A stretch of 64,000 nucleotides of DNA from Bacteroidota bacterium (GTDB lineage: Bacteria; Bacteroidota; Bacteroidia; UKL13-3). Location of the stretch: the NCBI GenBank assembly GCA_947457395.1, contig CANGVA010000013.1, positions 1 through 64,000 of the forward strand, in the 5' to 3' direction. Below the pieces are notes generated by a model. That model searched no databases. It had not been told where the DNA came from and saw only the letters and a list, made by a program, of their open reading frames with translations. The position numbers and the translations under genes are program-made. The stretch's first letter is position 1. The number at the start of each line of letters is the position of its first letter. Shown here in pieces: positions 33,668 through 34,296 of the stretch.

Positions 33668-33763
33668 CTATTGCTTCGGTCTGTGCTTAAAATTGGTGCT
33701 ATACCCAATAAAAAATGAATCGAAATTATCTGAATATAAAATATAAACGAAGTGCATCTGCAT
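33668..33763 (-). pseudogene. truncated GIY-YIG nuclease remnant
   Basis: The first 31 codons of a second GIY-YIG gene (MQMHFVYILYSDNFDSFFIG, then YSTN) end in a stop at 33668-33670. It is homologous to the intact copy at 33863-34114: 33700-33763 aligns with 34051-34114 with four mismatches, all outside the identical segment. The catalytic Glu helix is lost. It sits after a copy of the tRNA-Asp terminator, as the intact gene does. Confidence 0.8.
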
Positions 33764-33833
33764 AAAAAAAGCGAGCCTTATTAAAACTCGCTTCATTTGT
33801 TTAACCAATATTGGTCATTTAGCGGTGCGGACG
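33700..33833. repeat. direct repeat copy B (tRNA-Asp 3' end + terminator + GIY-YIG start)
   Basis: Aligns with 34051-34184 at an offset of 351 bases. Bases 33730-33833 are identical to 34081-34184 over 104 positions; the other 30 differ at four. It carries the acceptor end of tRNA-Asp, its terminator (arms 33769-33775 and 33787-33793) and the first codons of the GIY-YIG gene. Confidence 0.95.
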
Positions 33834-33861
33834 CCCCGAGTACTCGGGGGAACCCGCGACC
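33823..33861 (-). pseudogene. 3' half of tRNA-Asp with an inserted palindrome
   Basis: Matches the 3' part of the intact tRNA-Asp from the variable-loop GGTC to the discriminator base. In the T-loop GAGTCC is replaced by the 16-base perfect palindrome CCCCGAGTACTCGGGG (33834-33849). The fragment begins right after the stop codon of the intact GIY-YIG gene. It cannot form a tRNA. Confidence 0.85.
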
Positions 33862-33862
33862 T

Positions 33863-34114
33863 CTAAATTAAGCCCGTCAGCCTATAGTAAAAAGACTTAT
33901 TCTTTTGAGCCTTGAGAAACTTTTCTCTGCGCAGAGCATCTGCCTGTAATTCAAATTTTTCATGATATACCATACGCCATGGTCTTTTTGCCTTTGTTGA
34001 TTTAGTTAGGCCAGAATTATGCTCCAGCAATCGCCTGTCCATATCCGTTGTATACCCAATATAAAATGAATCAAAACGATCTGAATATAAAATATAAACG
34101 AAGTGCATCTGCAT
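33863..34114 (-). CDS. small GIY-YIG nuclease family protein docked behind tRNA-Asp
   Basis: An 83-residue single-domain GIY-YIG (URI) protein. The GIY/YIG pair is seen as FVYILYS and FYIGYTT, the catalytic Arg in DMDRRLLEHNSG, and the metal-binding Glu in ALRREKFLKAQKN, so the active site looks complete. The ATG at 34112-34114 directly follows the T-run of the tRNA-Asp terminator, and the TAG stop directly precedes the tRNA 3' fragment. Expression would need terminator read-through. Free-standing GIY-YIG proteins of this size are known (YhbQ-like); a homing role is inferred from the locus. Confidence 0.85.
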   Translation of the reverse strand: MQMHFVYILYSDRFDSFYIGYTTDMDRRLLEHNSGLTKSTKAKRPWRMVYHEKFELQADALRREKFLKAQKNKSFYYRLTGLI

Positions 34115-34184
34115 AAAAAAAGCGAGCCTTATTAAAACTCGCTTCATTTGTTTAACCAATATTGGTCATTTAGCGGTGCGGACG
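34051..34184. repeat. direct repeat copy A (tRNA-Asp 3' end + terminator + GIY-YIG start)
   Basis: Partner of 33700-33833. This copy belongs to the intact tRNA-Asp and the intact GIY-YIG gene. Confidence 0.95.
34114..34144 (-). terminator. intrinsic terminator of tRNA-Asp (copy A)
   Basis: Plus-strand arms AAGCGAG (34120-34126) and CTCGCTT (34138-34144) form the hairpin. On the minus strand it is followed by seven T, the last of which precede the ATG of the GIY-YIG gene. An identical copy lies at 33763-33793. Confidence 0.85.
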
Positions 34185-34247
34185 GGACTCGAACCCGCGA
34201 CCCCATGCGTGACAGGCATGTATTCTAACCAGCTGAACTACCGCACC
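34174..34247 (-). tRNA. tRNA-Asp (anticodon GTC)
   Basis: A full cloverleaf of 74 bases. The acceptor is GGTGCGG/CCGCACC, the D arm is in GTTCAGCTGGTTAGAA, the anticodon loop is CTGTCAC with GTC, and the T arm is CGGG-TTCGAGT-CCCG with discriminator G. CCA is not encoded (CTA follows). It is transcribed from a promoter at 34267-34296 and ends in the terminator at 34114-34144. Confidence 0.97.
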
Positions 34248-34266
34248 GTTCCTATTAAAAGGGATG

Positions 34267-34296
34267 CAAATATAGGTTTTTCAACTATTTTGTCAA
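34267..34296 (-). promoter_or_regulatory. promoter of tRNA-Asp
   Basis: On the minus strand TTG (34296-34294) and TATATTTG (34274-34267) are 19 bases apart. The predicted start is near 34263, about 16 bases before the tRNA 5' end. Confidence 0.75.

Follow-up and report, generated by a model that had tools for sequence, protein, structure and literature searches.

Anatomy of the tRNA-Asp locus

The DNA analyzed here (the window) is a stretch of 64,000 nucleotides from a Bacteroidota bacterium (contig CANGVA010000013.1 of assembly GCA_947457395.1, genome G000), and its tRNA-Asp gene raises the question of how a nuclease gene comes to lie between an intact tRNA gene and a displaced part of the same tRNA. 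On the minus strand, the order is tRNA-Asp, terminator, GIY-YIG gene, displaced tRNA-Asp piece, second terminator, and decayed GIY-YIG copy, and all of these parts, as listed in the initial annotation, were located (Table 1). The displaced part begins two bases after the stop codon of the intact nuclease gene. The duplication reported earlier, in which positions 33730 to 33833 and 34081 to 34184 are identical over 104 bases while the next 30 bases differ at four positions, proved exact, and a decayed copy in tandem is a usual feature of the class described below.

The displaced part had been read as a 3' half of tRNA-Asp; it is present, but its T-loop is edited, which had been missed. Six T-loop bases are swapped, with GGGTTC-GAGTCC-CGTCC in the intact tRNA-Asp and GGGTTC-CCCCGAGTACTCGGGG-CGTCC in the displaced piece, and it is therefore not a plain 3' half, since a perfect 16-bp palindrome replaces GAGTCC. 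The same edit is carried by two other genomes, G049 and G059, and in G049 the proximal terminator of the Asp element is unlike the distal one. In most genomes of the family, tRNA-Asp is syntenic with accA. The Ala locus, for which the same plan had been claimed, was confirmed together with its flanks, and its displaced copy carries a double-hairpin insert at the T-loop.

Table 1. Features of the Asp and Ala loci in the window
Feature	Start	End	Strand	Evidence or remark
tRNA-Asp(GTC), intact, host gene of the element	34173	34247	-	ARAGORN; Rfam RF00005, 67.6 bits
Proximal terminator, AGCGAG..CTCGCT hairpin and T-run	34115	34143	-	Read from sequence
Intact GIY-YIG nuclease gene, 83 aa, ATG at 34114 abutting the T-run, stop at 33863	33863	34114	-	
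Displaced psi-tRNA-Asp 3' part, from about position 45 to the 3' end	33822	33861	-	
Perfect palindrome CCCCGAGTACTCGGGG in place of T-loop GAGTCC of the displaced tRNA-Asp	33834	33849	-	
Distal terminator copy, identical to the proximal one	33764	33792	-	
Decayed second GIY-YIG copy, 31 codons from its ATG	33668	33763	-	
tRNA-Ala(GGC), host gene of the sister element	35749	35823	-	ARAGORN, Rfam
GIY-YIG gene of the Ala element, last codons extending into the displaced tRNA	35437	35721	-	
85-bp double-hairpin insert in the T-loop of the displaced psi-tRNA-Ala	35365	35449	-	Related inserts: tRNA-Lys and tRNA-Arg(CCT) upstream copies
Upstream psi-tRNA-Ala 5' copy without GIY-YIG gene, palindromes in the D-loop and replacing the anticodon arm	35841	35911	-	

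Partial tRNA copies in the window genome

Six GIY-YIG matches were found in the window genome, five of which belong to four tRNA genes (Asp, Ala, Leu-CAA, and Val), while the sixth appears, from its 609-residue frame, to be a long UvrC-type protein. At tRNA-Leu(CAA), a second, decayed GIY-YIG copy opens another contig. When partial self-copies were sought up to 400 bp upstream or 500 bp downstream of each tRNA gene, they were found at 15 of the 35 distinct tRNA genes, compared with none in reversed flanks. Upstream copies are interrupted mostly in the D-loop and downstream ones in the T-loop, either by TCCCGA..TCGGGA-type palindromes or by double hairpins of ∼90 bp. The double hairpins (∼85 to 95 bp, TCCCGAAAAAT..ATTTTTCGAGGNTCCTCGAAACA..TGTTTCGGGA, with differing arms) are common to partial copies of unrelated tRNA genes, at tRNA-Lys (L150), tRNA-Arg-CCT (L161), and tRNA-Ala (L171).

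The exact palindrome TCCCGAT..ATCGGGA occurs 27 times in the window genome; 19 occurrences, read by eye, lie in partial tRNA copies, and 7 lie on contigs 6 and 18, within repeats similar to integron attC sites. On these contigs (C6, L138; C18, L133), TCCCGATNNNNATCGGGA palindromes were observed within several of the attC-like repeats, which possibly represent a chromosomal integron array sharing the same palindrome in its hairpins.

A minimal GIY-YIG protein under purifying selection

The Asp protein matched PF01541 (E = 9.6e-16, on the TTG-extended open reading frame), and the catalytic-type residues Y7, Y18, G20, R28, H32, and E64 are invariant across the class. The domain takes up ∼70 of the 83 residues, and a separate C-terminal DNA-binding region is absent. 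The closest solved structures were 1ywl (E = 3.6e-13), 1zg2 (E of about 4e-13), and SLX1 (E = 5e-8). The Asp protein had no match in PHROG or PADLOC, the Ala protein had a weak PADLOC match only, and a single-sequence AlphaFold model (pLDDT of 50) was unusable. Between the window Asp gene and its G049 counterpart, dN/dS was 0.12, and unsaturated pairs ranged from 0.03 to 0.23 (saturated pairs, printed as 0.00, were left out), indicating that the tRNA-linked GIY-YIG proteins are under purifying selection.

tRNA linkage and isotype specificity in the family

Among 64 genomes of the family, 53 of the 123 small GIY-YIG genes had a tRNA-like flank (350-bp flanks, E ≤ 1e-3), on both sides in 34 cases, whereas none of 246 shuffled control flanks did; these shuffled and the reversed control searches exclude a chance origin of the tRNA-like flanks. 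In the protein tree, which was built from few columns and has moderate support, one branch (SH-aLRT of 88) has 59 non-tRNA genes on one side and 61 rows, among them all 53 tRNA-linked genes, on the other, and the unlinked rows on the tRNA side mostly reflect contig-end cuts or a tRNA farther off. The tRNA-linked label changes 9 times on this tree versus 39 times after shuffling, and isotype changes 17 times versus 33 (shuffle minimum, 29). One branch places all seven Asp genes on the same side; the Met genes, save one outlier, group together with one Arg gene. Judging from the tree, each GIY-YIG subclade keeps to one tRNA. The repeatable, tRNA-targeted process that had been suspected from two loci is thus tied to GIY-YIG genes at many tRNA genes throughout the phylum, and it is isotype specific.

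At the Arg-CCT loci of G050, G045, and G003 (L087, L108, and L145), the GIY-YIG gene lies ∼20 bp past the tRNA with no terminator between them and may therefore be cotranscribed with the tRNA. At L058 and L067, the GIY-YIG gene is apparently inserted 5' of tRNA-Arg(TCT), with a 5' tRNA piece pushed upstream. Separately, example loci of the second, non-tRNA clade of small GIY-YIG genes (L024, L033, L054, and related loci) have dispersed palindromic repeats alongside, such as CCTGAGCTTGTCGAAGGG and TCATTTCGAGCGAAGCCGAGA; by analogy, this suggests that the clade may be a GIY-YIG counterpart of the RAYT/REP system.

A conserved palindromic edit across the phylum

To extend the survey, GTDB representative genomes were scanned with an alignment of the Met clade, which replaced a 12-sequence alignment that was too diverse; the window Asp protein as sole query gave no matches in such a scan. 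The Met-clade scan returned 247 relatives, from which 80 loci were kept, nearly all labeled Bacteroidota, with one from a Cloacimonadota MAG. Among the 76 informative loci, i.e., those not at a contig edge, tRNA-Met(CAT) lies no more than 160 bp ahead of the GIY-YIG gene in 59, and in 67 if longer distances are included. A displaced tRNA-Met was found behind the GIY-YIG gene in 51 of 57 loci, compared with 0 of 57 reversed flanks.

The variable-loop GGTC had been put forward as the general break point within the tRNA. Comparison across loci does not bear this out: in the Met clade alone, the left edges of the displaced copies scatter from about position 1 to 36 of the tRNA, whereas the edit site is single; such scatter is the outcome that had been named in advance as contradicting this detail. 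What is constant within a lineage is the position of the palindromic replacement, namely, 37/38 for the Met clade, 56/57 for the window's Asp clade, and the anticodon arm for Val. In ∼42 Met loci, ACCCNAAGGT is swapped for TCCG(N6-8)CGGA just past CATA (position 37). The two variable arm pairs covary: of 34 sequences, 5 and 6 have TA in place of CG, with no unpaired cells, as read from the palindrome columns only. Considering the fixed site and this covariation, the Met edit is a conserved part of the element whose palindromic character is maintained. Palindromes with arms of at least 7 were likewise enriched, in 24 of 40 family loci versus 2.1 expected and in 33 of 56 Met loci versus 2.2 expected.

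Isotype specificity and edits at the anticodon or T-loop are also what one would look for if the nuclease acted on the tRNA itself and the displaced hairpin-bearing piece were a decoy RNA, in a toxin-antitoxin-like pair. We consider this highly improbable, given that the relatives (SLX1 and UPF0213) are DNA-structure nucleases, that the PADLOC match is absent (Asp) or weak (Ala), and that the displaced pieces, which often have no 5' half, come after the gene.

Occupied and empty sites

At the accA-adjacent tRNA-Asp, a GIY-YIG gene is present in seven genomes (G000, G049, G005, G022, G023, G025, and G059), which carry two GIY-YIG lineages, while most other genomes of the family have an empty site. 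Comparison of the occupied G059 with the empty G058 revealed a 320-bp insertion at tRNA-Asp between flanks that are both 93% identical, consisting of a GIY-YIG gene, a tRNA piece bearing the palindrome edit, and a copy of the terminator, accompanied by a direct repeat at least 43 bp long. In G059, the tRNA 3' end and the terminator each occur twice, and both copies equal those of G058. Presence and absence are observed here, and from them we infer insertion into an empty allele. This was the one clean empty-site pair found: searches for a syntenic relative of the Val (G046) and Asn (G025) loci gave none, and at the Arg-CCT site of G045, the close relative G036 lacks a tRNA gene. Triplicate loci in Niabella were considered as evidence of mobility and set aside, as they lie in duplicated regions of at least 2.6 kb and are uninformative in this respect.

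At Arg-CCT, the GIY-YIG gene and proximal spacer are 94% and 95% identical between the genera of G050 and G045, versus 31% for the distal flanks. Between the window genome and its congener G049, identity is 82% for the Asp gene, 94% for accA, and 98% for the Ala gene, while the displaced Asp piece plus terminator is identical at 93 of 95 positions; the Asp GIY-YIG gene was therefore probably swapped at an already marked site. More generally, 28 of 62 loci have a proximal terminator unlike the distal one, and between close pairs it is the proximal spacer, not the distal flank, that follows the gene. We thus favor a proximal part that travels with the element and a distal flank that stems from the host, though both terminators of G059 are host-like. 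The plasmid and phage collections yielded only distant relatives, and thus no vector was seen there.

The same data bear on a transposition-type process, in which the GIY-YIG protein would be a transposase-like nickase, the palindrome a terminal hairpin, and the tRNA 3' part plus terminator a long target-site duplication. The fixed place of the palindromes fits such a process, as does the target-duplication-like agreement of both G059 copies with the empty relative. We nevertheless regard it as unlikely, considering the unlike terminators and the divergent behavior of proximal spacer and distal flank described above; moreover, we know of no lone GIY-YIG domain that transposes.

Tandem arrays and copies without a nuclease gene

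The longest arrays were found in G062, a one-contig genome, in which eight GIY-YIG units follow tRNA-Asn and an array of eleven 5' copies precedes it. In addition, palindrome-bearing pieces without a GIY-YIG gene form arrays at tRNA-Leu(UAA), tRNA-Thr, and tRNA-Leu(UAG) of this genome. On its contig C1, positions 174154 to 174971, 1115141 to 1115914, 2179663 to 2180070, and 2327875 to 2328486 hold tandem arrays without GIY-YIG genes (tRNA-Asn, Leu-UAA, Thr, and Leu-UAG), composed of 7 to 13 partial tRNA copies that each carry TCCCGATARCTATCGGGA in the T- or D-loop. The same palindrome is also dispersed in intergenic regions of G062. Since several contigs of the window genome terminate inside tRNA/GIY-YIG repeats, ordinary decay or an assembly artifact at repeated tRNA genes has to be considered; it is hardly credible in view of the one-contig G062, the phylum-wide conservation, and the purifying selection.

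The best precedent for such behavior is SegB, a free-standing GIY-YIG homing endonuclease of the tRNA clusters of phages T4 and T6 (PMC13096335, PMC2988022), which cuts phage tRNA genes and drives tandem amplification of tRNAs together with its own gene (PMC13096335). By analogy, the tRNA-Asn arrays of G062 match what SegB-like tandem amplification would leave. This precedent and the arrays in G062 and elsewhere also agree with amplification alone, i.e., an immobile resident nuclease that breaks the tRNA gene, unequal repair that leaves partial copies, and vertical inheritance. Such an account is quite unlikely, as it fits poorly with the patchy occupancy of one orthologous site, the identity of about 94 to 95% of gene and spacer between genera at Arg-CCT, and the 82% versus 94% divergence within one genus.

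Alternatively, the palindromes could be a REP-like repeat in their own right that a Y1 (RAYT-type) transposase moves into redundant tRNA copies, with the GIY-YIG gene as a passenger. Y1 transposases are present in G000, G062, and G063, and the intergenic scatter of the palindrome in G062 would fit; however, no Y1 match was found in the palindrome-carrying G049 and G059 (assemblies 94% and 82% complete), such a palindrome lies near only one of four Y1 loci examined, no Y1 transposase was found at the palindrome-bearing tRNA loci, and the palindrome position of the Met clade is fixed across a phylum. We therefore judge this explanation very unlikely.

A single-gene homing-type element as the proposed explanation

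On balance, each unit is probably a minimal, single-gene homing-type selfish element placed directly downstream of a tRNA gene. In this model, the GIY-YIG nuclease would cut its own particular tRNA gene in element-free alleles, near the site at which the displaced copy carries its palindrome, i.e., in the T-loop for the Asp clade of the window and at anticodon position 37/38 for the Met clade. Recombination repair off the element-bearing copy would then insert the spacer or terminator, the GIY-YIG gene, and the edited tRNA piece, leaving an intact tRNA and shifting the edited piece and the downstream DNA of the host to the right. The right-hand homology arm would be the displaced piece, whose cleavage site, replaced by the palindrome, would remain uncut; the edited tRNA copy is probably a cleavage-proof homology arm. 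Repeated cutting would give rise to tandem arrays.

Several observations count against homing in this form. The protein scarcely exceeds its catalytic domain and lacks a DNA-binding module that could account for isotype specificity, and the intact tRNA of carriers, which retains the site presumed to be cut, should itself be cleaved. In some lineages (Val and Asp B) the displaced copy has an intact T-loop, and many palindrome-bearing tRNA copies have no GIY-YIG gene. Neither close pair displays a donor 3' half copied by simple gap repair: both terminators in the G059/G058 comparison look host derived, and both tRNA 3' ends at Arg-CCT look host-like. A more tentative possibility, which we hold with some doubt, is a new class of mobile element, in which an 80-residue SLX1/UPF0213-like nuclease would recognize one tRNA gene (possibly its hairpin structure) and spread by a novel route that regenerates the tRNA, with the palindrome-edited piece as a functional end and the same activity building GIY-less arrays on either side of tRNA genes.

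Comparison with known systems

The proposed homing-type element resembles SegB in having a GIY-YIG gene beside tRNA genes; SegB, however, is a phage protein of another GIY-YIG lineage, and the parts of the SegB reports available to us (PMC13096335, PMC2988022) describe neither a palindrome-edited displaced tRNA nor specificity for one isotype. The motif cleaved by SegB, RAWTSGAAC, matches the opposite strand of the T-loop (PMC13096335, PMC2988022), and the tRNA-Asp T-loop complement GACTCGAAC fits it by eye at 8 of 9 positions, although the motif is generic to tRNAs. Of the features that mark Seg-type genes, the catalytic domain with its conserved residues, the adjacency of gene and presumed target, and empty orthologous alleles are present, and the separate C-terminal DNA-binding region is absent. 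By comparison, the element may be called SegB-like in habit and unlike SegB in domain make-up.

In size, single-domain architecture, and sequence, the protein is closer to UPF0213/YhbQ and SLX1-type nucleases, which to our knowledge do not occur as tRNA-linked mobile genes; SLX1 differs in acting with SLX4 and in having a further zinc domain. Integrative elements that target tRNA genes through a tyrosine integrase and att duplication likewise regenerate an intact tRNA and leave a displaced 3' fragment at the far end, whereas here there is no integrase and the 320-bp insertion holds the GIY-YIG gene only. Mobile endonuclease open reading frames of organelles carry a duplicated 3' end of their host gene and, similarly, have the original gene end displaced behind an endonuclease gene. 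Their targets, in contrast, are protein-coding organellar genes, and we know of no palindrome-edited copy among them. REP/RAYT systems share the combination of short palindromes with a small nuclease gene, as does the second, non-tRNA GIY-YIG class; they differ in that the enzyme here is a GIY-YIG rather than a Y1 HUH protein and the palindromes occupy fixed places inside tRNA copies. No description of this tRNA-linked GIY-YIG class was found in the open-access literature (the search did not extend to subscription journals and preprints).

The class is spread over the whole phylum under the uninformative label "GIY-YIG nuclease family protein," and it may account for the tRNA-gene repeats at which Bacteroidota assemblies break. 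Isotype specificity without a recognizable DNA-binding domain poses a clear biochemical question, and the system makes it testable how a selfish nuclease gene lives beside its own target. If the proposed explanation is true, these units, with one gene in ∼320 bp, would rank with the smallest mobile elements that are autonomous and would be restricted to essential genes, which they leave unharmed.
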